DNA of 64,000 bases. Origin: Bacteroidia bacterium (GTDB taxonomy: Bacteria > Bacteroidota > Bacteroidia > Flavobacteriales > Flavobacteriaceae). Made by a program: the position numbers and the translations under genes. Within the stretch, counting starts at the first letter, position 1. The number at the start of each line of letters is the position of its first letter. Where the stretch lies: positions 1 through 64,000 of the forward strand of contig JAUIBW010000019.1 in NCBI GenBank assembly GCA_030427585.1. Direction: 5' to 3'. Positions 26,344-64,000 of the stretch are shown one piece after another. The notes under the pieces were generated by a model that was not told the DNA's origin, searched no databases, and saw only the letters and a list, made by a program, of their open reading frames with translations.

Positions 26344-27669
26344 TTATTCTTTTTCTTCATATTTGAGAATCCACGGATTTGTAGTAAAATAATTCCATGA
26401 AGCACCGGCCAGATCAACTTTTGGATCGATAAGTGTTTGGTATTTTTTTCCATTAATAGATACTTTACTATGCACATAGATAGCAATATCTTTTTCTTTT
26501 GCGGCATATTCGGCCTTGAGTCTTTGCGCAAATTGCCACATAGCATCTGGTTTTGATGATACTAATCGCAATTGTTTTTTAGAGAGGTAATCGTTTTTAT
26601 TAATTAATTTTTGTAGTGCCTTAGGATCATTTTTATCTACAACATAGAAATTGGTAGTACCATATCGACCTCTTAACATCATACGCCAACTCATTCTATG
26701 ACCTTCTTCTGTCCATAATACATCTCCAGGGATAATCCAGTGACGAATAGGAAGTAGGATTTGTATGACAAACCAGACTGTTAGTACAGGGAGTAAAAAT
26801 TTACGATATGAAGGTATAATTACTTCTTTAGCATTATAAAATTCCTTTTTTCTCATAAATAAATGATGTATTCGTTCTCTTGAAAAGAAAAAGACGGTAA
26901 ATGCTAATGATAAATATGGAAATATACCGATTTGAAAAACAATAGAATTAAAAAGATGAAAAAATACACTAAAACAAAAAGCCGCAAGTCGAGTTTTTCT
27001 CCATAGTAGTAAAGGTATAATTAGTAAGTCGAATAAAATGCCATAATAGGCAATAAAAACATGTGTCCAATGTTTCTGAAGAATATTTCCTACAATAGGA
27101 TAATTTGCTTTACCTGCCATAAGGTTTTTGGCAACGGTAAAATCTAACCAATCTGGATATAGTTTAGCTACTGAAGCATAGGTGTATACAATCCAGAGTT
27201 GAGCAATAATCACTAATATGCACCATCTAGGTATGGCAATTTTTTTAAGTGATGGATTCTGTTTTACATCTACCGAGAAATAATTTCCTGCGGGTAAAGT
27301 ACACATTATTAGGCAAAGTAGTAATAAGAGATAGTAGTGATTGTTATAGGATGCTTTTTGCATAAAATAGACTCCTGCCCATAATATGGTATACCCAATC
27401 ATACTCCATCTGTATTTAAAACCAATCATTACTAAAAGACCAAAAATCCCCATTATGGCAAAATAAAAGTACATGCCATTACCAGGTAAAGGTTGTAAAA
27501 AATCTAAACCAATAAAATTAAAGGTAAACTTAGGTTCGACTAGGGTACGGGTAACCCAGCCTGTAAAAATAGCCCCGATAGCTTCTGCAGCAATTAGAAA
27601 TCCAAAAAAAACTCGAAATACAATAAGAGAACTATTATCTACTTGAGTGAATAGCCAACGATTGATCAT
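26344..27669 (-). CDS. HTTM-domain membrane protein (vitamin K gamma-carboxylase-related)
   Basis: SSLIVFRVFFGFLIAAEAIG..EGHRMSWRMMLRGRYG. Confidence 0.75.
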   Translation of the reverse strand: MINRWLFTQVDNSSLIVFRVFFGFLIAAEAIGAIFTGWVTRTLVEPKFTFNFIGLDFLQPLPGNGMYFYFAIMGIFGLLVMIGFKYRWSMIGYTILWAGVYFMQKASYNNHYYLLLLLCLIMCTLPAGNYFSVDVKQNPSLKKIAIPRWCILVIIAQLWIVYTYASVAKLYPDWLDFTVAKNLMAGKANYPIVGNILQKHWTHVFIAYYGILFDLLIIPLLLWRKTRLAAFCFSVFFHLFNSIVFQIGIFPYLSLAFTVFFFSRERIHHLFMRKKEFYNAKEVIIPSYRKFLLPVLTVWFVIQILLPIRHWIIPGDVLWTEEGHRMSWRMMLRGRYGTTNFYVVDKNDPKALQKLINKNDYLSKKQLRLVSSKPDAMWQFAQRLKAEYAAKEKDIAIYVHSKVSINGKKYQTLIDPKVDLAGASWNYFTTNPWILKYEEKE

Positions 27670-49232: not shown

Positions 49233-49820
49233 ATGAATACAGCTAAACCTAATCAGACCATATATCCTAGAGCGGTATTGGAAAGAAGAAGAAAAAGAAA
49301 TGAAAAAAACTGGTACATTTTTTATACCTCACCACGTGCCGAAAAGATAGTATACAACGATCTTTTGGCAAGAGAATATGATGCGTTTCTTCCATTGACT
49401 AGAACGTTGAAAGTATGGAAAAATAGACAGAAGAAACTTATAGAATCTCCACTTTTTCCAGGTTATATTTTTGTAAATACTAAAATGAGCGAGATTTATG
49501 ATATCTCGAGACTTCCCAAAATAGCTACATATATTAAATGCGGACAAAATCCTTCAGTCATTTCACCAAATGATATAAATACGATCAAGAAAATGTTATT
49601 ACTTGAAGAAAGTGTTTCTGTAGAAACTACCTTTTATGAAGGAGAACAAGTAAAAATTATTCACGGGCCATTAACTGGCCATGAAGGCATTTTGGTAGAA
49701 CAAAAAGGTAAAACAAGATTTGGGATTCGTCTCAAAGAAATAAACCACACTGTGTTTATTAATGTTTGCACCAATATTTTACAGAAAGTAAATAACCCCT
49801 GTTCGGTTAAAGAAAAGTAG
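49233..49820 (+). CDS. UpxY/RfaH-type NusG-paralog transcription antiterminator
   Basis: NWYIFYTSPRAEKIVYNDLLAREYDAFLPLTRTLKVWKNRQKKLIESPLFPGYIFV; KOW region GEQVKIIHGPLTGHEGILVEQKGKTR. Confidence 0.9.
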   Translation: MNTAKPNQTIYPRAVLERRRKRNEKNWYIFYTSPRAEKIVYNDLLAREYDAFLPLTRTLKVWKNRQKKLIESPLFPGYIFVNTKMSEIYDISRLPKIATYIKCGQNPSVISPNDINTIKKMLLLEESVSVETTFYEGEQVKIIHGPLTGHEGILVEQKGKTRFGIRLKEINHTVFINVCTNILQKVNNPCSVKEK

Positions 49821-50076: not shown

Positions 50077-53000
50077 ATGATAGATAAAGAAATACTATTA
50101 GAATCAACAGAGTGTTATCTAAAATCTCTGATATCTGAATTCACTCAAATATCAATCGGAGATAATTGTGTATCTACTCCATTTCAGGAGTTAGGAATCG
50201 ATTCATTTCGTATTCTTCAGATTATCAAAAAATTAGAGGAAGAATTCGGAACTTTACCAAAGACCTTACTTTTTGAAAATTTCAATATCGGTGATTTAAG
50301 TTATTATTTTGTTGATAAATATGAAGGAATACTAATAGAGAAATTTAAGCAAGAAAAGGGAGATAGTGATCGAGCCACACACTCTAATGAAGAACCATTA
50401 AATTCAATCGAAAAAAACACAAAAATAATTGATAATCAAAATGATGTGTATGGGGTAAAAACTCCTGTTCTTATATTAGAAAAAGAAGTTAATAAACACC
50501 CAGAATTACTAAAGCTGGTAGAAAAACTATTTCACCAATACAAGAATGAAGGCTCTGCATCAAGGGGAACAAGAAATATAGCTCCTAATCTTTTTATTGG
50601 GGCAGAAAAAAAAGGGTATTTTAATTATAGTCGTTATAAGGACATCATATTAGTATATAGCTATACAGGAGCCAAAGATTATCTATCTGTTATTACAGAA
50701 GAAATATATCAATACTGTATCAACAATAATTTTGAACTTAATCTTTTCACAGTTGATCAAGTAGGGTCGATAGGAGGAGTTGTATTTACAACCACTCCTT
50801 TTGGCGTTTTATCAAGGATAAATATAAAAGATTTCACGCTTCAAGGAAGCAAGATGCGTCGTTTACGATATCAAGTATCAAAATTTGAAAGAGCAGGAAA
50901 ATGTAGAACTGAAGAGTATCAAAATGGTTCTGACGAAAAGGTAGACAAAAATATTACCAAAATTATTGATGAATGGTGTGCACCAAGAACAATGGTTAAC
51001 CCGCTCATTCATATAGTTAAAGAAGAAATTCTATCTGGTAACTTAAATGCAGAACATAGACTTTTTCTAACATACCTTGATGATGTTCTGCAGAATGTAA
51101 TCCTTATCTCAAAATTATCATCAGAAGAGAATGGATATTTAATGGATTTAGAGTTCTACCCAAAGAGTATGCCTCTGGGAGGGTTAGAATTTGCAATTGT
51201 AGAGATCATCAAAACTTTAAAAACCGAAGAATATACTATTTTAAGTTTAGGAGGTACATATGGTTGTAAACTAAACTCTTCATCAAATTCAGATCCAGAA
51301 TTAGATAAAACACTAGATTATCTGCGTGGGCAAAATATTTTTAATGATGAAGGAAATTTGCAATTCAAAAATAAATTCAGGCCAGAACATAATACTGTAT
51401 TTCTTTCCAGACCCGTAGGAAGCAATCCTGATAATATAACCGATATTATTATGATGATTGCAGATCCGATGAAAATGCAAACTTCGGACAAAGAAAATCA
51501 TACGTTCACCAAATTATATAAGCAAACTAATGTATTAGAGCTAAAAACAGCAAGACAGAATACATCAAATTCAAACGGAGAGTTTAAGCAGGTAAAAGAA
51601 AACCTACAAGTAGAGAAACATAAAGTGGTGATTGAAGGAGAAGAGCGATCTATTATATTATCAGATTATGGTTATAATCCTTTAAACATACCAGGTGATC
51701 AGGTTACATTTGATCTGAAAACCGATTCGTGGGCCCAATTAGAGTTACCAGTTATTCAAAATCAGTTAAGCTTTTTATATACGCAGTTACAACAACCGGT
51801 TGATCTTATCGAGAGTTTAAGAAATATATTTCCTTTTTCTTATTTTATGTTAACCACTGCAGGCCGTACTGCAGAACGTGCTTTTTGTAAATCATGGCCT
51901 AAAAAAGGGAAAGTACTTCAGAATCTGCTTTTTCCTACCATGATTTTTAATCAGATCCAAAATGGATTTACACCAATAGAGTTACCACATCCGAGGGTAT
52001 ATAAGTTAGATTCTGAGGACCAATATAAAGGAAACCTAAATTGGGAAATTCTTAAAAAACAAGTAAAAGAAGATTCAGAGTCGATAGCTTTTGTTTTTAT
52101 CGAAATGAATGATAATGCTGCTGGAGGAGCGCCAGTGTCTTTACAACATCTCAAACAAGTAAAAGACCTCCTTTCAGAATATGCTATTCCTCTTGTTTTT
52201 GATACTACAAGAATTGTAGAAAATGCGTTATTTATCCTGGAACATGAAAACGAATTTATCGGAAAAAATGTATGGGATGTAGTACAGGAAATGGTCTCTT
52301 ATGCAGATGCAATAATTGCAAGTTTGGCTAAGAATTTTTGTGTAGATAAAGGAGGATTGATAGGCACCAATGATGCCGAACTTTACAATAAAATTCAAAA
52401 CTTTATTCAGGAAGAAAGCATTGGACTTGATGTAATCGATAAAAAAGTTATTGGATTATCATTTCATAACAGAAATAAGATTGAGACTCGGGTTCGTAAT
52501 AGACTACAATCTGTACAGACCATCTGGAGGGTTTTAAAACAACAAGGAATTCCTGTTGTACAACCAGCATTGGGGCATTGTATATTGATTGATGTTAAAC
52601 AAATTCCTGAATTTGAATTATTTGAGTACCCAGTTGCATCATTTGTATCCTGGTTATATTTAAATACAGGGATTCGGGCAGGAGCTCATAATGTAGGAAT
52701 GCAAAAAGATACAGAAATTAATAATCTGGTACGCCTGGCTATACCTGTGGGCTTAAAACAGGAAAAAATAGAGGAAATCGCTAATAGGTTGATTAAAGCG
52801 TTTCAGAAAAAAACTAATATTCCTGAGATTTTACCCAAAGATAATCAATCAAAAACATTTGGTAATATACATACCAATTTCAACCTCAAAATGTATCATA
52901 ATACTTCTGGAGAAGTAGTTTCAAAAACACCCAATTCTGAAACCTCTTCAATAGATAACGATAATAATATCTCTGTTACAGAAAGCGCAGGAAAATCTAC

Positions 53001-56000
53001 CCAAACCGATTCAGATATTAAGGTAAAAGAAACCGGGGCAAATCAGAGTATACAAAATGATAAGCGATACCAAACCGGCGATATTGCTATTGTTGGGATA
53101 GCCGGCCGTTATCCTAAAGCCAAAAATATGAACGAATTCTGGAATAACCTGGTTCAAGGAAAAGATTGTGTCGAGGATATACCAGACGTTCGTTTTGGAC
53201 AACGTCTTCATAATAAATTTTCAGAAAAATATCGAGGTGGTTTCATCGATGATATAGACAAGTTTGATTCACTTTTTTTTAATATCTCTCCTAGAGAAGC
53301 TGAATATCTTGATCCGCAGGAAAGACTTTTTCTTGAAGTGGCCTGGGAAGCTATAGAAGACGCTGGTTATTATCCAGAAACATTAGTAGATGACAATGCT
53401 TCTCGAAATATAGGAGTTTATGTAGGAGCTGTATGGACACTTTATCAGGTAATCGGTACAGAAGAAAAGCTAAAAGGGAATTTTGTTAGCCCCAGTTCAC
53501 ACTTATGGGGTATTGCTAATCGGGTGTCGTATGCTTTTAACCTTTCTGGCCCGAGTTTACCTATAGACACGGCTTGTTCCTCAAGTCTAAGTGCGTTATA
53601 TCTCGCTTGTGAAGCAATCTATAAAGGAGAATGCTCTGGTGCCATTGTGGGAGGAGTTAATCTAGACGTTCATCAAAGTAAAATAGATATTAATAAAAGT
53701 GGCGGTGCACTTTCAACAGATGGTGTATGTCGTACCTTTGGTAAAGGAGCTAATGGCTACGTAGCTGGCGAAGGTGTCGGTGCAGTTTATATTAAGCCTC
53801 TTGACAAAGCAGTAAAGGATGGAGACCATGTGTACGGAGTAATCAAAGGTATTGCCGTTAATCATGGAGGAAAAACAAGTGGATTTATGGTACCTAGCCC
53901 TAAATCACAGGCGCAGGTGGTTACTACTGCATTAGAAAACGCTAAAATCGATGCTCGTAGCATTGGTTATGTCGAGGCACACGGAACAGGAACCGAATTG
54001 GGTGATCCTATCGAGATTTCTGGTTTAACAACAGCCTTTCAGGAATATAATGTAGACAAACAGAAATGTTCTATAGGTTCGGTAAAAACCAATATAGGAC
54101 ACCTTGAAGCCGCAGCAGGTATTGTAGGATTGCATAAGGTACTCTTGCAAATGAAATATAAGAAACTTGTTCCTTCTCTTCACTCTTCTGACTTAAACCC
54201 TTTTATCGATTTTAAAAATTCTCCATTTTATGTAGAGCAAACGGTTAAAGAGTGGAAACCTAAGACAATCGAAGGTGTTCAGTACCCACTTCGAGCTGGT
54301 ATTAGTTCTTTTGGTGCCGGTGGAGCCAATGCACATGTTATCATCGAAGAATATGTAACTTCGATTGAAGAAGAAAAAACACCATCTTCAAAATTTAAGG
54401 AGTATATTTTTCCGCTTTCCGCTAGAAATGAAAATCAACTTCGCGAAACAGCAATACGCTTATCTTCATTCCTTCAGGATGATTTGTCTGGAGAAAAACT
54501 ACTTACTTGTAAAGATATTGCGCATACGTTACAAATAGGAAGAAAATCTTTTGATCATCGCCTGGTTATAATTGCAAAAACAAAACAAGAACTAGTTCAA
54601 AAACTTACTTTATTTATTGATGGCAAGCAGGATAATGCGATGCTTACCGGAGAGGTGAAAAATAGCCAAAATATTACACGATTATTAAATCGTAAAGAAA
54701 AAGAAGAATTTATTAAGTTCCTGTCCCAGAGTGGAGATTTAAGTAAGTTAGCACAGCTATGGAGTGTTGGATTTCTTGCAGATTGGCAAGGAATACAAGC
54801 TCTAGAAGCAGGAGCAAAGATCTCTTTGCCAACTTACCCTTTTGCAGATAAGAGACACTGGATTTCTGATACTTCAAAATCACCCAACCTTGGCTTGTAT
54901 TCAACCACTGCTCTTCATCCGTTAATAGATTCTAATGAATCAACATTCGAAAGACAGGTCTTCAAAAAAACCTTTCATGACAAGGATTTCTTTATATACG
55001 ATCACTTGGTATCTGAAATTCCTACTCTACCGGGTGTTGCTTATCTGGATTTTGCACGTAAAGCCGGAGAACTGGCAACCGGAAGAAAAGTTCAAATCAT
55101 TAAAAATATTCTCTGGTTAAGTCCGCTAACTGTAGTTGATTCGGCTCCCAGAGAAGTATGTATAGAACTGAAGCCTAACGGAGGATTAGTACATTTTGAA
55201 GTATTTAGTGAAGAAGAGAATACTACAAAGCAAATATATTCGCAAGGAAAACTTATATATGCAACTCATGAGGAGCTTACTGCAGAACCCGAATATATTG
55301 ATTTAGAAGAGATTCGCACAAGATGTGTAAAAGTTACCGACGGAAAGGAAGCATATCCACTTTTTAAGTCATTAGGATTAGATTTAGGGCCTAGTTTTCA
55401 AGTGCTTCAGGATATTTTCAAAAACGATGATGAAATATTAGGAGAGCTTCTTATTCCAGAAATCCGAAACAATGATTTTAATGATTACTTGCTCCATCCT
55501 TCACTTGTAGATGGTTCTTTTCAGGCAGGTATGGCAGCACAATTGGGAGCGCAAACAGGAGAAATGTTTGTGCCATATTCAATAGGTGAAGTCGAAGTTT
55601 TACAACCGTTGAAACCAAAATGTTTTAGTTATGTCAAAAAAGTAGATGAACCAGGGTCAAAGGTTTCCAAAGTGAATGTTTTTATTGTGGATGAAGATGG
55701 AATGATACTTGTGAAAATCAGAGAATCTATAGGAGTCCCACTGGTTAGTGTTCACGAAAAACCAGATCAAACTAAAGAAGAAGAGGAGTATTCAAAGTTA
55801 TATTACGCTCATGAATGGAAGAAATCTCTATTAGAACAAGAAAAAGTAGTATCTAATGAATCAGGGCCTATTTTACTTTTTAGCTTGGATGAAAAACTCC
55901 AAAAGGTTTATAAGGATCGTTATAAAAAGAATGAAGATATTATACTGATCGAACCTGGAGATAGATATAAGAAATTTGGAAATCATAGATATAAGGTCAA

Positions 56001-59000
56001 CCCCAAAAAACCAGCAGATTTTAAAAAGCTTTTTGAAGCGTTGAATAAAGATACCATCAAAAAAATATGTTTTGCCTGGCCGATAGGAGATGAATTAAAA
56101 GATGATGATGAATATAAAGAAGGTTTTATTGAAAAATCTTTTGATAATGGAATTTATTCATTCCTTATTCTCTGTCAATCTTTGATAGAGCAAAAACTAG
56201 ACAATGTTCAATTATTATATCTGTATTTAGGACAAATAGGTGCTATCCAACCGCATCATGAAGCGATAAATGGCTTTGCCAAGACCCTTCAGATGGAGCA
56301 CCCAAAATTGTATTGCAAAATTCTGGAAATCCAGCAGTCAAAAAAATCTTACGATAAAATTCTGGATATAGCTTTAACCGAATTACATTCTGATAATTCT
56401 AACGAAATGACTATTCGTTATCAGGAAGAAGAGCGCTATGTCAGAAAAGTAAAAGAATTTTCTTTATTTCAGGATCAAGATTCTGATACGACTGATAGCT
56501 TTGGGCTAAAAGAAAATGGAGTATATATTATTACTGGTGGCGCAGGAGGATTGGGACTTATATTTGCAGAATATTTAGCTGCTCAATGTAAAGCACGGTT
56601 AGTACTTACCGGAAGATCGAAACTCTCGGGCGAACGTCAAACAAAATTAGATAAATTAAGTGAAGCCGGTGCAGAAGTAATGTATGTACCAGCAGATATT
56701 TCGATAGCTAAAGATGTCGAGAATCTGATTAAGAAAGCAAAATCGAAGTTCGGGAAAATTAACGGAATTATTCATAGTGCAGGTGTTTTAAGAGATTCGT
56801 ACGTTAGGAATAAAACGCGCGAAGAAATGGAAGCGGTTTTTGCCCCAAAAGTGTACGGGACATTTTATTTGGATAGAGCAACCAAAGATGAAGATCTGGA
56901 CTTTTTTGTAACGTTTTCATCTCTGGCAGCCGTTGGAGGAAATGCAGGGCAGTGTGATTATTCGTTCGCAAATCACTTTATGGATTCCTTTGCAGAGAAA
57001 CGTAAGTTGCTACAGGAAAAAGGAGAAAGAGCAGGAGTGACATTAAGTCTTAACTGGTCTTTATGGGCAGATGGTGGAATGAAGTTGGATGAACAAACCG
57101 AAATTTTCTTTAAAAAGAACCTGGGAATAAAACCTTTAAGTATAGAAACTGGCCTGGAAGCATTTGAAAAAGGCCTTCATACCAGAAAAGTGCAATTTGT
57201 TGTATTAGAAGGAGTACAGGAAAAAATAGAACGAGCCTGGGGTATTAAGGAGAAGGAAACCCCGGAAGCTGTAACAACAGATTCTAAAACTTCAACAGAT
57301 TCTGAAGTACAGGTAGATCAACAAGCAGATAAAGATTTATTTATACTAGTTCGGGATGCATTATCCGAAATTGTTATGGAGATGTTGAAACTGGATCCAG
57401 AAGACATTTCATACGATAAGATATTATTGGATTTAGGGTTTGATTCTATAGGTTTAACGACTTATGCAAATCGAATCAACGAACTTTATGAATTGGATAT
57501 AACGCCGGTACTCTTTTTTGAATATCCATCAATTAAGGAAATAGCAACGTTCCTCTCTAGAGAACATAAGAATGAAGTACAGAAAACTCATAAAGTTTCA
57601 GGAGGTGCTTCTTCCTCTGATACTATAAAAGAAGTTAGTCAATCAACAAAAAGAAAAGAAGAACATTCGGATGCAGAGAAAGATATATATAGCATTAATA
57701 AAGGGTGGAATGCAAGTGCATTGGATCTACAACCTCAATCTTCAGGAGTAGAACTGTCCACAGAAAGCCGTTTTATAGATCAGCCGATCGCTATAGTTGG
57801 TATGAGCGGAGTGATGCCAGGGTCAGAAAATCTAGAAGAATTCTGGGAAAACCTTGAGAATGAAAAGAACTTAATCACTGTGATTCCTGAAGATCGATGG
57901 AATTGGGAGGACTATGATGGAGACCCTTTTAGAGAGAAAAATAAAACCAATTCTAAATGGGGAGGTTTTATGAGTGACGTAGATAAATTCGACCCTTCAT
58001 TTTTTGGAATTTCTCCCAGAGAAGCCGAAATGATGGACCCACAACAGCGAATATTTTTAGAAACCGTCTGGAAAACTATTGAAGATTCGGGACATAAAGT
58101 TTCTGATCTATCGGGTACTAAAACAGGATTATTTGTTGGAGTAGCAACAAGAGATTATGCAGATTCATTAGTAGATAATCAAATTCCGCTCGACGGATAT
58201 ACTGCTTCGGGAAATTCACACTCTGTATTGGTTAATCGGGTTTCTTTTCTGTTAAATCTTCGAGGGCCAAGTGCACCACTGGATACAGCATGTTCCAGTT
58301 CTTTGATTGCAGTTCATAGAGCAATAGAATCCATACATACTGGGAGTTGTGATATGGCTATAGTTGGAGGAGTACAGTTAATGCTTACACCTGCAGCGTA
58401 TATATCATTTGGAATGGCAGGTATGTTAAGCGGTGATGGCAAATGCAAAACCTTTGACAAGAGTGCAAATGGATATGTAAGAGGAGAAGGTTCTGGAGCT
58501 ATATTTCTTAAGCCCCTAGATAAGGCAGAAGCCGATAGAGATCATATTTATGCCGTTATTAAAGCAACTACAGAAAATCACGGAGGAAAGGTTACTATGC
58601 TTACAGCACCTAATCCCGTTGCTCAAACCGATTTACTTGTCGAAGCTTATGAAAAGGCTCATATTGACCCCTCTACAGTTGGATATATCGAATGCCACGG
58701 TACAGGTACCAGTTTGGGAGACCCTATTGAAATTCAGGCGTTAAATAAAACCTTTTCAGAATTATATAAAAAACATGATAAAGTTCCTGCAAAAACTCCC
58801 CACTGTGGTTTATCTTCTGTAAAAACTAATATCGGTCACCTGGAGACAGCAGCAGGAATAGCAGGAGTACTTAAAGTACTGTTATCTCTTAAACACAAAA
58901 AAATACCAGCAACGCTTCACTTCAAAGAACTCAATCCATATATTAATCTTAAAGATAGTCCACTCTACATTGTAGACAAAACACAAAATTGGGAGGTTAT

Positions 59001-60627
59001 AAAGGATGATCAGGATAATACTCTACCAAGAAGAGCAGGAGTAAGTTCGTTTGGTTTTGGGGGAGCAAATTCACATATCGTTTTAGAAGAATATATTGAG
59101 GAAGAAGATCATTCTCAAGTTCAATTAGATGAACCACATATCATTGTACTTTCAGCGAAGACTGAAGATCGACTTAAAGCATACACTCAATTATTATATA
59201 ATTATGTAGAAAAACACAATATTAATCTTACTAATCTTGCTTTTACACTTCAGATAGGGAGAGATGAGATGGATGAACGATTGGGACTGGTGGTAAATTC
59301 GATTGAAGAACTAAAAGAGAAACTTTCAGATTACTTAAGTCAAAAAGAAAACATAGAAGATATTTTCTATGATAGAGTTAAACGAAATAATGTAGCGACC
59401 ATAGACTACACAGAAAATAATGACTTCTCAGAAACGCAGATTAATAAGTACATTAATGATAAGAATTATTCTAGGTTAGCCGAAGCTTGGGTAATGGGAG
59501 TCAATATAGATTGGGCACAGCTTTATAAACAAGTAAAACCAAGACGTATTAGCTTGCCAACATATCCTTTTGCTCGTGAGAGATACTGGTTTAATTTGGC
59601 AGATAGTGAAAAATTGAAATCCGAAGGAGAATTTGAAAAACTTCACCCGTTGTTACATTATAATTCCTCTACACTAAGTCAGCAGTGTTATACTTCTGTT
59701 TTCAGTGGTAAAGAATTTTTTATAAAAGATCATAAGATACAACAGCAAAATGTAATGCCTTTTACCGCCTATTTGGAAATAGCCTATGTAGCAGTAAAAA
59801 AAGCAATACCGGATCTTAATGAATCTACATCTCTGGAATTAAGAAATACCTCTTGGGCAGATTTGCTTACTATTAAAGATAACAAAGAAGTTAATATATC
59901 ACTTGTTGAAAATAATGATAAAGGAGTTGACTATGAAATTTATAGTACAGTAGGAGAAAAAGAAATAATCCATTGCGAGGGAGAAGTTGCGATTATAGCA
60001 AATCAAACTTCAACAACGATTGATATAGCTCAACTCAAAACTCATTTTACAACAGAACCTATTAATCCAGAAGAACTTTATCAGGTTTTGGAACGTATGG
60101 ATATGAGTTATGGCCCTTCTTTTAAGGGAATAAAAAACGTTTACAAGGGAGAAGATCAAATTCTGGCCCAATTAAGTTTACCAAAAACTATAACAGATGA
60201 TTATGAAAACTATACTCTTCATCCAAGTCTTATTGAGAGTTCGTTACAATTGGGAATTGGTTTATTGACTGATCTGGATCCAAAATTAAATCAACCCATA
60301 TTACCTGTTGCAATAGGATCTATAAAGTTATTTTCTCCTTGCCAGAAAGAATTATATGCCTGGGTAAGATACTCAAAAGGAAGCAAACCAGAAGATGGTG
60401 TAGTGAATATAGATATTGATCTCACCGATGGATTAGGAGAGATATGTATTAAAATGAAGTCTTTGTCATTCGATAACTCTTTACATAAGAAGTCTATTAA
60501 AGATTCATATAAGGATTTTGAAATGTTAATAAATGCCATACAGAATTATGATTCAAACCAAACAGAATTCGATGATACAGAAGATCACACTGTAAGCTTT
60601 GATAAATTATTAAAGGATGTATACTAA
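50077..60627 (+). CDS. trans-AT type I PKS: ACP - DUF2156/GNAT-like - PLP beta-eliminating lyase-like - KS - DH - KR - ACP - KS - DH(variant)
   Basis: ACP GIDSF; DUF2156-like LEFAIVEIIKTLKTEEYTILSLGG; TPL-like AGGAPVS..VFDTTRIVENALF..SLAKNFCVDKGG; KS DTACSSS/HGTGT/NIGHLE twice; KR TGGAGGLG; ACP GFDSIGL; no AT domain. Confidence 0.93.
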   Translation: MIDKEILLESTECYLKSLISEFTQISIGDNCVSTPFQELGIDSFRILQIIKKLEEEFGTLPKTLLFENFNIGDLSYYFVDKYEGILIEKFKQEKGDSDRATHSNEEPLNSIEKNTKIIDNQNDVYGVKTPVLILEKEVNKHPELLKLVEKLFHQYKNEGSASRGTRNIAPNLFIGAEKKGYFNYSRYKDIILVYSYTGAKDYLSVITEEIYQYCINNNFELNLFTVDQVGSIGGVVFTTTPFGVLSRINIKDFTLQGSKMRRLRYQVSKFERAGKCRTEEYQNGSDEKVDKNITKIIDEWCAPRTMVNPLIHIVKEEILSGNLNAEHRLFLTYLDDVLQNVILISKLSSEENGYLMDLEFYPKSMPLGGLEFAIVEIIKTLKTEEYTILSLGGTYGCKLNSSSNSDPELDKTLDYLRGQNIFNDEGNLQFKNKFRPEHNTVFLSRPVGSNPDNITDIIMMIADPMKMQTSDKENHTFTKLYKQTNVLELKTARQNTSNSNGEFKQVKENLQVEKHKVVIEGEERSIILSDYGYNPLNIPGDQVTFDLKTDSWAQLELPVIQNQLSFLYTQLQQPVDLIESLRNIFPFSYFMLTTAGRTAERAFCKSWPKKGKVLQNLLFPTMIFNQIQNGFTPIELPHPRVYKLDSEDQYKGNLNWEILKKQVKEDSESIAFVFIEMNDNAAGGAPVSLQHLKQVKDLLSEYAIPLVFDTTRIVENALFILEHENEFIGKNVWDVVQEMVSYADAIIASLAKNFCVDKGGLIGTNDAELYNKIQNFIQEESIGLDVIDKKVIGLSFHNRNKIETRVRNRLQSVQTIWRVLKQQGIPVVQPALGHCILIDVKQIPEFELFEYPVASFVSWLYLNTGIRAGAHNVGMQKDTEINNLVRLAIPVGLKQEKIEEIANRLIKAFQKKTNIPEILPKDNQSKTFGNIHTNFNLKMYHNTSGEVVSKTPNSETSSIDNDNNISVTESAGKSTQTDSDIKVKETGANQSIQNDKRYQTGDIAIVGIAGRYPKAKNMNEFWNNLVQGKDCVEDIPDVRFGQRLHNKFSEKYRGGFIDDIDKFDSLFFNISPREAEYLDPQERLFLEVAWEAIEDAGYYPETLVDDNASRNIGVYVGAVWTLYQVIGTEEKLKGNFVSPSSHLWGIANRVSYAFNLSGPSLPIDTACSSSLSALYLACEAIYKGECSGAIVGGVNLDVHQSKIDINKSGGALSTDGVCRTFGKGANGYVAGEGVGAVYIKPLDKAVKDGDHVYGVIKGIAVNHGGKTSGFMVPSPKSQAQVVTTALENAKIDARSIGYVEAHGTGTELGDPIEISGLTTAFQEYNVDKQKCSIGSVKTNIGHLEAAAGIVGLHKVLLQMKYKKLVPSLHSSDLNPFIDFKNSPFYVEQTVKEWKPKTIEGVQYPLRAGISSFGAGGANAHVIIEEYVTSIEEEKTPSSKFKEYIFPLSARNENQLRETAIRLSSFLQDDLSGEKLLTCKDIAHTLQIGRKSFDHRLVIIAKTKQELVQKLTLFIDGKQDNAMLTGEVKNSQNITRLLNRKEKEEFIKFLSQSGDLSKLAQLWSVGFLADWQGIQALEAGAKISLPTYPFADKRHWISDTSKSPNLGLYSTTALHPLIDSNESTFERQVFKKTFHDKDFFIYDHLVSEIPTLPGVAYLDFARKAGELATGRKVQIIKNILWLSPLTVVDSAPREVCIELKPNGGLVHFEVFSEEENTTKQIYSQGKLIYATHEELTAEPEYIDLEEIRTRCVKVTDGKEAYPLFKSLGLDLGPSFQVLQDIFKNDDEILGELLIPEIRNNDFNDYLLHPSLVDGSFQAGMAAQLGAQTGEMFVPYSIGEVEVLQPLKPKCFSYVKKVDEPGSKVSKVNVFIVDEDGMILVKIRESIGVPLVSVHEKPDQTKEEEEYSKLYYAHEWKKSLLEQEKVVSNESGPILLFSLDEKLQKVYKDRYKKNEDIILIEPGDRYKKFGNHRYKVNPKKPADFKKLFEALNKDTIKKICFAWPIGDELKDDDEYKEGFIEKSFDNGIYSFLILCQSLIEQKLDNVQLLYLYLGQIGAIQPHHEAINGFAKTLQMEHPKLYCKILEIQQSKKSYDKILDIALTELHSDNSNEMTIRYQEEERYVRKVKEFSLFQDQDSDTTDSFGLKENGVYIITGGAGGLGLIFAEYLAAQCKARLVLTGRSKLSGERQTKLDKLSEAGAEVMYVPADISIAKDVENLIKKAKSKFGKINGIIHSAGVLRDSYVRNKTREEMEAVFAPKVYGTFYLDRATKDEDLDFFVTFSSLAAVGGNAGQCDYSFANHFMDSFAEKRKLLQEKGERAGVTLSLNWSLWADGGMKLDEQTEIFFKKNLGIKPLSIETGLEAFEKGLHTRKVQFVVLEGVQEKIERAWGIKEKETPEAVTTDSKTSTDSEVQVDQQADKDLFILVRDALSEIVMEMLKLDPEDISYDKILLDLGFDSIGLTTYANRINELYELDITPVLFFEYPSIKEIATFLSREHKNEVQKTHKVSGGASSSDTIKEVSQSTKRKEEHSDAEKDIYSINKGWNASALDLQPQSSGVELSTESRFIDQPIAIVGMSGVMPGSENLEEFWENLENEKNLITVIPEDRWNWEDYDGDPFREKNKTNSKWGGFMSDVDKFDPSFFGISPREAEMMDPQQRIFLETVWKTIEDSGHKVSDLSGTKTGLFVGVATRDYADSLVDNQIPLDGYTASGNSHSVLVNRVSFLLNLRGPSAPLDTACSSSLIAVHRAIESIHTGSCDMAIVGGVQLMLTPAAYISFGMAGMLSGDGKCKTFDKSANGYVRGEGSGAIFLKPLDKAEADRDHIYAVIKATTENHGGKVTMLTAPNPVAQTDLLVEAYEKAHIDPSTVGYIECHGTGTSLGDPIEIQALNKTFSELYKKHDKVPAKTPHCGLSSVKTNIGHLETAAGIAGVLKVLLSLKHKKIPATLHFKELNPYINLKDSPLYIVDKTQNWEVIKDDQDNTLPRRAGVSSFGFGGANSHIVLEEYIEEEDHSQVQLDEPHIIVLSAKTEDRLKAYTQLLYNYVEKHNINLTNLAFTLQIGRDEMDERLGLVVNSIEELKEKLSDYLSQKENIEDIFYDRVKRNNVATIDYTENNDFSETQINKYINDKNYSRLAEAWVMGVNIDWAQLYKQVKPRRISLPTYPFARERYWFNLADSEKLKSEGEFEKLHPLLHYNSSTLSQQCYTSVFSGKEFFIKDHKIQQQNVMPFTAYLEIAYVAVKKAIPDLNESTSLELRNTSWADLLTIKDNKEVNISLVENNDKGVDYEIYSTVGEKEIIHCEGEVAIIANQTSTTIDIAQLKTHFTTEPINPEELYQVLERMDMSYGPSFKGIKNVYKGEDQILAQLSLPKTITDDYENYTLHPSLIESSLQLGIGLLTDLDPKLNQPILPVAIGSIKLFSPCQKELYAWVRYSKGSKPEDGVVNIDIDLTDGLGEICIKMKSLSFDNSLHKKSIKDSYKDFEMLINAIQNYDSNQTEFDDTEDHTVSFDKLLKDVY

Positions 60628-60642
60628 AGGAAAGATAAGGTC

Positions 60643-62412
60643 ATGATAGTAATCGACAATATATTAGAAAAAATTGTTTCAAAGAAAATAGAGAAGAAAG
60701 AAGCTTTAAAATTCTTTGAAGAATTACCCGAAAAAGAGAAAAGTTATTTGGTTTCTAAACTAAAAACGCATTTATCAAATAGGGCTGGCTCAGTAGAGAA
60801 TAATTTTTCCAATAAAAAAGATAGAACACTTAAAGCAGTAACAGAACTTCAGTTAAATGAAGAACATAAGGGATTCATTGATCAAATGGCCCAGAAACTG
60901 GAAAAAAATGCGCCAAAATCCAAAGAAAATGCATCTAAGTGTCAGACATATTTTGTAGATCAAAGAAGAACCGGAGGGTTGAAAAAAGCGTTGAAACGTT
61001 TACAATTTCATTTAACATATAGTAAGGGTGAAGGAGCATACCTTTATGATATTGATGGTAATAAATACATTGATATAGCAAGTGATAATGGAGTTAATCT
61101 ATTTGGTCACCAACCAGACTTTATAAAAGAAGCGATCTCAAAACGGTTAGATAAAGGCTATCCTTTGGTAGGGTATACAGAAGAGCTTTCTCTGGCAACC
61201 CAACTTTTTAGTGAACTTACAGGTCACGAAAGGGTTCTTTTTACACAATCTGGTACAGAGGCAGTTATGTGGGCAGTAAGGATTGCTCGTGCAGCTACTC
61301 AAAAGAAAAAAATAGTAATTTTTGAAGGAGCGTATCATGGATTATCTGATACAGTACTCGCAGCCAAAGATCAGTTTGGTAATAGCATTGCAATGGGGTT
61401 GGGAATGATTCAGGAATTTGCCGATGAGCTTATTGTTCTGGATTATGGAAATATGGACCATCTGGATATTATAGAAGGGAGAGCACACGAAATTGCTGGA
61501 ATCCTGGTAGAACCTGTACAATCCAGAAATCCAAGTAATCAGCCTGTTGAATTCCTAAAGGAGGTACGCAAATTAACTCTTGAAAAAAATATCCTGTTGA
61601 TAATAGATGAAATGATCACTGGATTTAGGGCTTCCTGTAGCGGAGTACAAGGTCTTTGGAAGATTAAAGGAGACCTTGCTACCTATGGAAAAGTTCCTGC
61701 AGGGGGAATGCCTTCCGGGATGATTGCAGGACTTACCAAATACATGAATTATGTAGACGGGGGAACATTTGACTATGATGATAATTCGATGCCCAGTGTT
61801 AAAAAAGCACTTATGGCAGGAACACATACTAGAAACCCAATTAAACTAGCTGCAACACTAGCAATACTTTCCGAAATTAAAAAAAGGAGTTCAACTTCAG
61901 AAAACAATACTGATAAAGCAAGTCCTGATTTCTTACATGAGTTAAATGAAAAGACCAGGCTCATGTGCGAAGAACTGAATTCTTTTTTTAGAGTTAAAAA
62001 TGTGCCATTGATAATCGAGTATTTCAGTTCATTATTCAGATTCAAATTTCTGGATGATCCCAATGGGGTGGTAAAAGAGTTAGTTTTTGTTTTGATGAGA
62101 ATAAATGGAGTTGAAACCAGCCCTTCTGGCAACTGCTTTTTGACATTAGCGCACTCTGATAAGGATATTAAATCTATTATAAGAGTTGTAAAGAAAAGCA
62201 TTGATATGCTATTGAAACAGAACTTCTTTTATATACCTGATAGTATTGAAGAAGATGAAATTAAAGAAGATATCCAGTCGACAATATCTACCATTCCTGA
62301 TATGAGAAACGATCCTGAGCAAGGAACCAAAAAAAATGATCAAATGGAAAAATTAAGAAAATTAATTATATCCGATTTGAATAATTTTCAAGAAAAAGGA
62401 GTAACAATATGA
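60643..62412 (+). CDS. Class III PLP aminotransferase (GSAM-like) with N-terminal docking-like segment, PKS tailoring
   Basis: LLIIDEMITGFRA, YGKVPAGGMPSG (PLP Lys); N-terminus ILEKIVSKKIEKKEALKFFEEL resembles trans-AT PKS linker/docking segments. Confidence 0.85.
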   Translation: MIVIDNILEKIVSKKIEKKEALKFFEELPEKEKSYLVSKLKTHLSNRAGSVENNFSNKKDRTLKAVTELQLNEEHKGFIDQMAQKLEKNAPKSKENASKCQTYFVDQRRTGGLKKALKRLQFHLTYSKGEGAYLYDIDGNKYIDIASDNGVNLFGHQPDFIKEAISKRLDKGYPLVGYTEELSLATQLFSELTGHERVLFTQSGTEAVMWAVRIARAATQKKKIVIFEGAYHGLSDTVLAAKDQFGNSIAMGLGMIQEFADELIVLDYGNMDHLDIIEGRAHEIAGILVEPVQSRNPSNQPVEFLKEVRKLTLEKNILLIIDEMITGFRASCSGVQGLWKIKGDLATYGKVPAGGMPSGMIAGLTKYMNYVDGGTFDYDDNSMPSVKKALMAGTHTRNPIKLAATLAILSEIKKRSSTSENNTDKASPDFLHELNEKTRLMCEELNSFFRVKNVPLIIEYFSSLFRFKFLDDPNGVVKELVFVLMRINGVETSPSGNCFLTLAHSDKDIKSIIRVVKKSIDMLLKQNFFYIPDSIEEDEIKEDIQSTISTIPDMRNDPEQGTKKNDQMEKLRKLIISDLNNFQEKGVTI

Positions 62413-64000
62413 CAGTAGCAATAACTCAAAATGTTTTACAAGAGATCATAACGATCTTTGAAACCACATTACGACTCCCCGCAGGGAAATTGGATCCTGA
62501 TGCTAATTTCGAGGATTTTGGTATAGATTCCATTATTTCTATGGAATTGATCAATAAAATATCCCGTAAGTTTAATATTACCCTATCCCCTTCAAAATTC
62601 GTAAATGTAAACACAACTCAAGAACTTGCTGATTTACTGGAAGAGGAGATAATCAGTGTTAAAACAGATAACATAGATAATGTGACTGAGATAAATGATT
62701 CGCCAGAAATACGGATGAATTCAGAGATCAAAAGTCAGGTAACCGAAAAAAATATCAACTCAAATTCTACGAGAGATCGAATATCTCGAGGTAGAAAATC
62801 TGTTAAAGAATCTTATCATAAATTATTACATTTTATACATCAAAAATATAAGATAGATCTGTTACACCGCTCGTTTAGATCGATTGATGAAATAGTTGAT
62901 TTTTTGTTATCTCACCATAGTGATGATTTGATGCAGTATTACAATACTTTTGATCAAAGTAATGAGAACGACTTCAATGAAAAACAAAAACAGAGACCTA
63001 GTGCAAATGTGACAGATAAACCATCATCCCAAAACTGCGATATAGCTATTGTTGGTCTTAGTTGCAATTTTCCCGATGCACCTAATATTCGGACATTTTG
63101 GAAAAACCTAGTTGATGGTAAAAATAGCATCAACGAAATTTCGAAATCAAGATGGAATTGGGAAGATTATTATGAAGAATCAGTATCCAAAGGCAAGACT
63201 GTTTCCAAATGGGGAGCAATGATCAATGATATTGATTGTTTTGATCCGAAATTTTTTGACCTTGATCCAGAAGAAGCAGCACTGATGGACCCCCAGGAGA
63301 GGTTGCTGATACAAGAGGTCTATAAAGCATTTCAGGATGCAGGTATAGCACCTAAAAAATTAGCCGGGTCTGATACAGCTATATATGTTGCTTATGAGTA
63401 TTCAGAATATGAAAATTATCTAAGAAAGAACATAGATAAAATACCGGTAGGTAAATATGGACCTGTTTTCAGCTCCTCAAGCCCTACATATTATCTAGCA
63501 AACAGACTTTCGTTTTTGTTTGATTTTTATGGACCTAGTGAATCTATAAATGTTAACTGTGCAGGATCTGCAGTAGCAATCAATAGAGCCTATTACTCAC
63601 TACTAAATAATGAATGTAGTACTGCAGTTGTAGGTGGTGTATCTTTAAATTTATTTGCAGAGGATTACATCTCATTATCACAATATGGTATGTTATCACC
63701 TACAGGAACATGTGGAGTTTTTGATGATGAAGCTAACGGATTTACCAGGGGAGAAGGGGTAGCAGCCGTTGTTCTAAAAAGATTGGATGATGCCAAAAAA
63801 GATAATGACAGAATTTATGGTGTTATCAAAACCAGTCATCAGAATAATAGAGGTAATGCCAGGTTTTTATCAGAAGTAAAACACGAATCTATTACCAATG
63901 TTATAACGAGGTGCTATCAAAAGGCTTCAATAGCCCCAGAATCAATACACTATATCGAAGTTGATGGATATGCAACAAAATGGGGAGACTCTTTTGAATA
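62409..64000 (+). CDS. trans-AT PKS, 5' part (ACP - KS...), continues beyond window; absent from supplied ORF track
   Basis: ATG overlaps upstream TGA (ATGA). Manual translation MTVAITQNVLQEIITIFETTLRLPAGKLDPDANFEDFGIDSIISMEL..DIAIVGLSCNFPDAPNIRTFWKNLVDG..NVNCAGSAVAI..VDGYATKWGDSFE, no stop to 64000. Confidence 0.92.
   Translation, partial: MTVAITQNVLQEIITIFETTLRLPAGKLDPDANFEDFGIDSIISMELINKISRKFNITLSPSKFVNVNTTQELADLLEEEIISVKTDNIDNVTEINDSPEIRMNSEIKSQVTEKNINSNSTRDRISRGRKSVKESYHKLLHFIHQKYKIDLLHRSFRSIDEIVDFLLSHHSDDLMQYYNTFDQSNENDFNEKQKQRPSANVTDKPSSQNCDIAIVGLSCNFPDAPNIRTFWKNLVDGKNSINEISKSRWNWEDYYEESVSKGKTVSKWGAMINDIDCFDPKFFDLDPEEAALMDPQERLLIQEVYKAFQDAGIAPKKLAGSDTAIYVAYEYSEYENYLRKNIDKIPVGKYGPVFSSSSPTYYLANRLSFLFDFYGPSESINVNCAGSAVAINRAYYSLLNNECSTAVVGGVSLNLFAEDYISLSQYGMLSPTGTCGVFDDEANGFTRGEGVAAVVLKRLDDAKKDNDRIYGVIKTSHQNNRGNARFLSEVKHESITNVITRCYQKASIAPESIHYIEVDGYATKWGDSFE

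Follow-up and report, generated by a model that had tools for sequence, protein, structure and literature searches.

A probable sulfur-installing DUF-SH didomain of leinamycin type within a trans-AT polyketide synthase assembly line of Aquimarina

Introduction

The window analysed here (64,000 nucleotides, positions 1 to 64,000 of the forward strand of contig JAUIBW010000019.1, GenBank assembly GCA_030427585.1) contains a polyketide synthase (PKS) gene whose product opens with an acyl carrier protein (ACP), a domain of the DUF2156 type and a pyridoxal phosphate (PLP)-dependent lyase domain. This raises the question whether the trio corresponds to the DUF-SH arrangement of leinamycin (LNM)-family synthases and, if so, at which point of the assembly line and with what outcome it acts. 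A preliminary description, made from the sequence, had compared the three domains to leinamycin DUF-SH and suggested that an amino acid might be added to the ACP-bound chain and then eliminated to leave a sulfur or other group.

Domain organisation of P0002

The open reading frame of the protein, here called P0002, is intact and encodes 3516 amino acids. Besides LPG_synthase_C and Beta_elim_lyase, Pfam recognises two ACPs, two ketosynthases (KS), a ketoreductase (KR) and DH domains, an architecture that recurs in Aquimarina, Fulvivirga, Kordia and Chitinophaga. The features are as follows.

50077..60627, + strand: trans-AT PKS protein P0002 (open reading frame and Pfam), ACP-DUF-SH-KS-DH-KR-ACP-KS-DH
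50092..50331, + strand: N-terminal ACP, aa 6-85, with LGIDSF motif and phosphopantetheine serine S43 (50203-50205)
50452..51471, + strand: DUF (DUF2156 / LPG_synthase_C), aa 126-465 (Pfam PF09924, AF2, Foldseek, identity to relatives)
51631..52836, + strand: SH (thiocysteine-lyase-like PLP domain), aa 519-920 (phmmer, Foldseek, residues, tree)
53068..54660, + strand: KS right after SH, aa ~998-1527, with a complete C-H-H triad (DTACSSS, HGTGT, NIGH)

The order ACP, DUF2156, PLP lyase as first described was thus confirmed, as was the internal rather than terminal position of the three domains, which are followed by a KS. No acyltransferase (AT) domain was found by Pfam in the PKS proteins, and two free AT genes lie in the cluster; an ACP directly upstream of DUF and an AT-less PKS served by AT in trans are among the features of DUF-SH didomain PKSs.

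The SH domain

The Pfam profile Beta_elim_lyase matches aa 576-873 with 82.1 bits (cut-off 27, E 5.5e-23). Among solved structures, 9cen_A is the closest by sequence (phmmer, E 7.7e-55), even though the identity amounts to only 28%. The same entry, named by Foldseek as the guangnanmycin biosynthesis thiocysteine lyase (SH) domain, is also the top match of the AlphaFold model of the didomain (E 1.6e-36, TMt 0.82-0.86). The NCBIfam equivalog cut-offs for tyrosine phenol lyase (TPL) and tryptophanase (TnaA) are missed, with 155.9 bits against 720.7 and 111 against 825.8, respectively. When the domain was placed by phylogeny beside tryptophanases and TPL, as the preliminary description had proposed, all SH domains formed one clade apart from the tryptophanases (support 100); the SH of P0002 falls inside a Bacteroidota clade (97), within a larger group of Proteobacteria, Acidobacteriota and Bacteroidota, and this group is separate from the leinamycin clade that contains 9cen. 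An ordinary tryptophanase or TPL fused to the synthase by chance is ruled out by the sub-cut-off NCBIfam scores, the separate clade and the conserved residues.

These residues are K752 (52330-52332), D709 (52201-52203), R712, N680, F619 and R886 (52732-52734), all identical in 74 of 74 DUF-SH relatives; their TPL equivalents are, in this order, the PLP lysine, the pyridine aspartate, R217, N185, F123 and the carboxylate arginine. The lysine, the aspartate with its neighbouring arginine and the carboxylate-binding arginine had been named correctly from the sequence. Furthermore, the SH-typical W552 and H871 are invariant in these relatives and C835 nearly so, and the whole set, with C835 again nearly so, is common to the characterised leinamycin clade. 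Where TPL has Tyr71 the relatives differ from one another, as has also been noted for embedded PLP domains (PMC3870968). That the DUF-SH pair might be a relic that plays no active part in making the present product is scarcely credible given catalytic residues that are invariant from Aquimarina to Actinomycetota and a didomain that is 75-95% identical within Aquimarina. The agreement of domains and residues with DUF-SH is far beyond chance, and judged by its sequence the ACP-DUF-SH part of P0002 is a bona fide DUF-SH didomain, homologous to the LNM type and apparently catalytic.

The DUF domain

Membership of DUF in the LPG_synthase_C (DUF2156) superfamily is supported by profile as well as by fold: Pfam matches aa 175-443 with 61.1 bits (cut-off 27.5, E 1.2e-16), and the AF2 model (pLDDT 95.3) finds its best Foldseek matches in the soluble domains of A-PGS, L-PGS and MprF (4v35, E 4e-17), further matches being FemX and then the tRNA-dependent peptide synthases Sbb17/Sba18. 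The searches proposed earlier against DUF2156, MprF and LnmJ DUF-SH have returned a profile match and an MprF-type fold for DUF, and 9cen for SH. The alignments for the structure models contained no rows from plasmid records. In the model of the didomain (pLDDT 91), the linker between DUF and SH (model residues 358-390) is of low confidence and the pTM of the whole model is 0.57, so that no claim is made on the mutual orientation of the two domains.

DUF is 35-94% identical to 75 relatives. Its fold could suggest a true aminoacyl-tRNA-dependent transferase, which would transfer cysteine from Cys-tRNA onto the ACP-bound chain for subsequent cleavage by SH; the best-matching folds all belong to tRNA-dependent enzymes or to FemX, and the K-x-K-F-x-P and D-L motifs of the tRNA-dependent enzymes are kept. 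We nevertheless regard this as very unlikely. tRNA-dependent aminoacyltransferases join their amino acid via the alpha-carboxyl, whereas the carboxylate-binding R886 of SH, kept in 74/74 relatives, implies that the carboxylate is free. In addition, the DLMRF motif of MprF is changed to DLEFY, and the models for the LNM family use free thiocysteine (PMC8479088). No Cys is invariant in DUF among 74 relatives, which argues against a covalent Cys or persulfide relay in this domain, a candidate we consequently disfavour.

A conjugate addition has been proposed as the role of DUF (PMC7618002). For the question that occupies the field, how this domain forms the C-S bond, the fold match to tRNA-dependent aminoacyltransferases points to residues H327, R328, D357, E359, Y361, K431 and K433, and ACP-DUF-SH proteins with a single ACP and no TE are easier to work with than the leinamycin module, in which the ACPs are in tandem.

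Relatives and distribution

The host of P0002 is a marine Aquimarina; in the genome-contig scan the best relatives come from Aquimarina atlantica (94%), followed by other Aquimarina. By tblastn, DUF and SH occur together in Streptomyces/Kitasatospora PKSs that end in DUF-SH (four records), and genes for LnmK and HMGS adjoin the PKS in three of these four, the three with annotation. The ACP-DUF part (aa 9-464 or 36-464) is 34-37% identical to the four PKSs (E 3e-79 to 2e-89), SH is 32-36% identical to the leinamycin-type PKSs of these genera, and both domains are colinear with them. Together with the closeness to 9cen and the common SH clade, these values bear out the likeness to leinamycin-family DUF-SH that had been proposed.

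The genome-contig scan found 100 relatives, 80 loci of which were kept, and more than 70 DUF-SH loci are spread across Bacteroidota, Proteobacteria, Acidobacteriota and Actinomycetota, with Fulvivirga, Kordia, Chitinophaga, Sporocytophaga, Lysobacter, Massilia, Steroidobacter, Acidobacteriota and Actinomycetota as further hosts. A sample of 395 other Bacteroidota genomes yielded only stand-alone tryptophanase-type matches, and none among the matches listed covers DUF, so that no DUF-SH genome is present in this sample. According to the architecture survey, ACP, DUF and SH remain one block from phylum to phylum. Outside Actinomycetota this block is as a rule N-terminal and followed by a KS (ACP-DUF-SH-KS), and in nearly all of these non-actinobacterial relatives the ACP before DUF has LG[IVL][DN]SF; the leinamycin type ends in KS-ACP(-ACP)-DUF-SH, and LNM-type, Acidobacteriota and Myxococcota proteins have the block in an internal or a terminal position. 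The KSs following SH form one exclusive clade (48/48), to which co-inheritance with DUF-SH contributes.

The statement in the preliminary description that such systems were described from Actinobacteria is therefore right for the leinamycin family itself and wrong for DUF-SH generally. A table published in 2013 (PMC3870968, Table 2) lists CP-DUF2156-PLP-KS-KR-CP-KS for Kordia algicida A9ECY5 and a like protein, F8TUA6, for Lysobacter; 109 DUF-SH clusters were reported later, three non-leinamycin families among them (Meng et al. 2021, PMC8479088), and antiSMASH 7 contains an SH profile. Neither the arrangement nor its occurrence in Bacteroidota can thus be called new or rare.

Gene cluster and order of the assembly line

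The cluster extends from C31:49233 as far as contig C31 reaches and resumes on C30. Direct abutment of the two contigs was rejected, as the synteny with Aquimarina sp. AU58 shows a missing piece between them. Apart from P0002, the window contains the following cluster features.

49233..49820, + strand: NusG-like antiterminator paralogue, directly upstream of P0002 (Pfam PF02357, E 9.5e-18)
60643..62412, + strand: free-standing class III (GSAM-like) aminotransferase (Pfam PF00202, E 9.7e-47)
62409..64000, on to C31:66200, + strand: P0004, ACP-KS0-ACP-TE, terminal assembly-line protein (Pfam)

A NusG-like homologue is also found upstream of DUF-SH in Bacteroidota loci. Elsewhere in the window (26344-27669), a protein with HTTM and vitamin K-dependent gamma-carboxylase lumenal domains is encoded, which is unrelated to the PKS.

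In the complete cluster of AU58 (G397:C2), P0002, the aminotransferase and P0004 are followed by MMPL, LolA-like and GMC genes, then by PKS-A, B, C and D, a sulfur quartet, and genes for HMGS, ECH, AT and KS. PKS-A (C31:72498 onward) begins with an LnmK-family acyltransferase/decarboxylase domain fused before an ACP (173 bits, cut-off 100), and we therefore take PKS-A to be the loading protein. At the end of each of PKS-A, B, C and D an ACP is missing, which the next protein supplies; PKS-D ends with KS-DH and P0002 starts with an ACP, and at the next junction P0002 itself ends with KS-DH and an ACP opens P0004. Read colinearly, the line runs A-B-C-D-P0002-P0004, the split module PKS-D/P0002 being deduced from domain order, and DUF-SH acts late, with three ketosynthases between it and the thioesterase (TE). 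The KS of P0004 lacks the histidine of HGTGT (VDGYATK) in four genomes, so only two extensions follow DUF-SH, which would place the sulfur at about C7, counted from the carboxyl end. We also considered whether a non-elongating KS ahead of DUF-SH might belong to a dehydrating bimodule. In this form the idea was rejected, since the triad is complete in the KS with which PKS-D closes; it is P0004 that contains the apparent KS0.

This order also bears on the N-terminal position of ACP-DUF-SH, which, together with its place in the first gene of most non-actinobacterial loci, might suggest a loading module producing a starter unit that carries sulfur. We hold such a role to be highly improbable. The LnmK-family loading domain is on PKS-A, the junction of PKS-D and P0002 and the TE on P0004 make P0002 a late protein, and in other lineages, as the survey showed, the block is not confined to the N-terminus. 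P0002 is the first gene of the operon, as had been noted, but the line starts at PKS-A and not with this protein.

The class III aminotransferase is conserved in Fulvivirga (79%) and Kordia (49%). Its gene lies exactly between those of P0002 and P0004, over which the split module KS-DH // ACP is divided, and the enzyme may act in trans on the beta-keto group of this module. PKS-A, B and C (AU58, G397:C2 563653-607100) contain modules with three tandem ECH each and mostly tandem ACPs, and there is one free ECH gene; from its sequence this appears to be an unusual in-cis beta-branching set-up. Between PKS-C and PKS-D, a 411-aa protein (L011:9891-11126, C30) without a match in Pfam or NCBIfam is encoded, the AU58 copy of which is 68% identical in Fulvivirga; its HVVADGYT motif suggests a BAHD/condensation-type acyltransferase.

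The sulfur quartet (C30:25391-30293) comprises a C_GCAxxG_C_C protein, a NifS/IscS-like desulfurase, a 206-aa SAM methyltransferase and a 664-aa SufS-like protein. Fulvivirga marina keeps the whole cluster layout including the quartet, and Kordia algicida keeps the core without it. Aquimarina, RhTr2, two Fulvivirga and Chitinophaga varians have the SufS-like gene with 72-98% conservation, and at E<=1e-40 it was not found in 16 further genomes with DUF-SH.

Proposed mechanism

We consider it likely that P0002 contains a DUF-SH didomain of leinamycin type, which installs sulfur midway along a trans-AT PKS. The product of PKS-D would be handed over to the N-terminal ACP of P0002 via the split module, and DUF, with its dup-GNAT / aminoacyl-tRNA-transferase-like fold, would bind the phosphopantetheinyl chain in a GNAT-type cleft and attach a nucleophile of the cysteine type, most probably L-thiocysteine, at an electrophilic carbon. 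A KR is absent from the DUF-SH module, and HMGS, ECH and KS genes are present in the cluster; the electrophile could arise by HMGS-type branching as in leinamycin, or be an unsaturation brought from the previous module. By analogy to the characterised homologues, the PLP-bound SH (K752) would then take the alpha-proton and eliminate at the beta-carbon, with pyruvate and ammonia leaving and -SSH (or -SH) staying on the chain, which the dedicated next KS would pass through two further extensions to the TE on P0004. This scheme is based on homology, fold, the intact active site and module order by synteny; the substrate, the choice between persulfide and thiol, and the electrophile are what we infer. 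The amino-acid addition and elimination chemistry first suggested for the locus appears plausible.

With regard to the sulfur species, SH domains of the LNM family are thiocysteine lyases in vitro, and three tested SH domains were 50-106 fold more efficient on thiocysteine adducts than on cysteine adducts (PMC8479088). Cleavage of the cysteine adduct is nonetheless observed with LnmJ-SH, albeit within this range of lower efficiency (PMC8479088), and in the clade of P0002 the domain might act on a plain cysteine adduct and leave a thiol (-SH) instead of a persulfide, which we consider rather unlikely, though a good deal less so than the other alternatives. The divergence of the P0002 clade from the LNM clade in the SH tree would be in line with it. 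We know of no SH residue that sets the preference for thiocysteine or cysteine; the SH-typical active-site residues, however, are equal in both clades, and the two cysteine desulfurases linked to the cluster speak for persulfide sulfur, if only in a subset of genomes. Going further, DUF-SH of Aquimarina and Fulvivirga might be fed by the NifS-like and the 664-aa SufS-like desulfurases, with DUF making a previously unknown C-S bond on the ACP-bound chain, possibly from carrier- or tRNA-bound cysteine, and the mid-chain persulfide being processed by later modules, a combination we regard as decidedly unlikely.

Link to cuniculene

The cuniculene trans-AT PKS cluster (Helfrich 2019) is stated for the strains Aq78, A. 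muelleri and RHTr2 (PMC9323603, PMC9860996). All of these checkable cuniculene strains carry the DUF-SH cluster; with a trans-AT KS linker profile, Aq78 and RHTr2 show only contigs attributable to it, and A. muelleri has one extra, weaker match. Because the strains coincide and the DUF-SH cluster is their only large trans-AT PKS cluster, the cluster of P0002 is, by elimination, probably cuniculene-type. If so, a product has already been isolated whose structure could show what becomes of the sulfur. Fulvuthiacene was considered as a candidate sulfur-containing product and gave no further lead.

Comparison with known systems

With the LNM family (LnmJ, GnmT, WsmR), P0002 has in common a homologous DUF followed by SH after an ACP, the same PLP catalytic set, a trans-AT PKS and relatives of LnmK and HMGS in the cluster. 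The LnmK homologue is fused to PKS-A as a loading domain, and the HMGS, ECH and KS genes would be candidates for beta-branching at one or other ACP. P0002 differs in having a single N-terminal ACP, a KS and further modules following, and the TE on P0004, whereas LNM synthases have a terminal KS-ACP-ACP-DUF-SH-TE module in a hybrid NRPS-PKS line. No C or A (NRPS) domain was found by Pfam in the PKS proteins examined, in a genome where a stretch of the line is unassembled. P0002 thus stands outside the leinamycin family proper, which is defined by that terminal module and the hybrid line.

The fold of DUF (TM about 0.7) and its K-x-K-F motif recall the C-domains of MprF, LPG and A-PGS synthases and FemX, but DUF sits on a PKS ACP, reads DLEFY for DLMRF and has no membrane part. 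Closest in layout are the non-LNM DUF-SH PKSs (PMC8479088; Kordia, Lysobacter) with ACP-DUF2156-PLP-KS-KR-ACP-KS, whose modules have a single ACP and no TE (PMC7618002). Kordia algicida differs from the P0002 locus in a DUF-SH that is 55% identical, in other upstream PKS proteins and in lacking the desulfurase quartet. The DUF-SH of P0002 is real and well supported, and its ACP-DUF-SH-KS layout and occurrence in Bacteroidota place it among systems already known.
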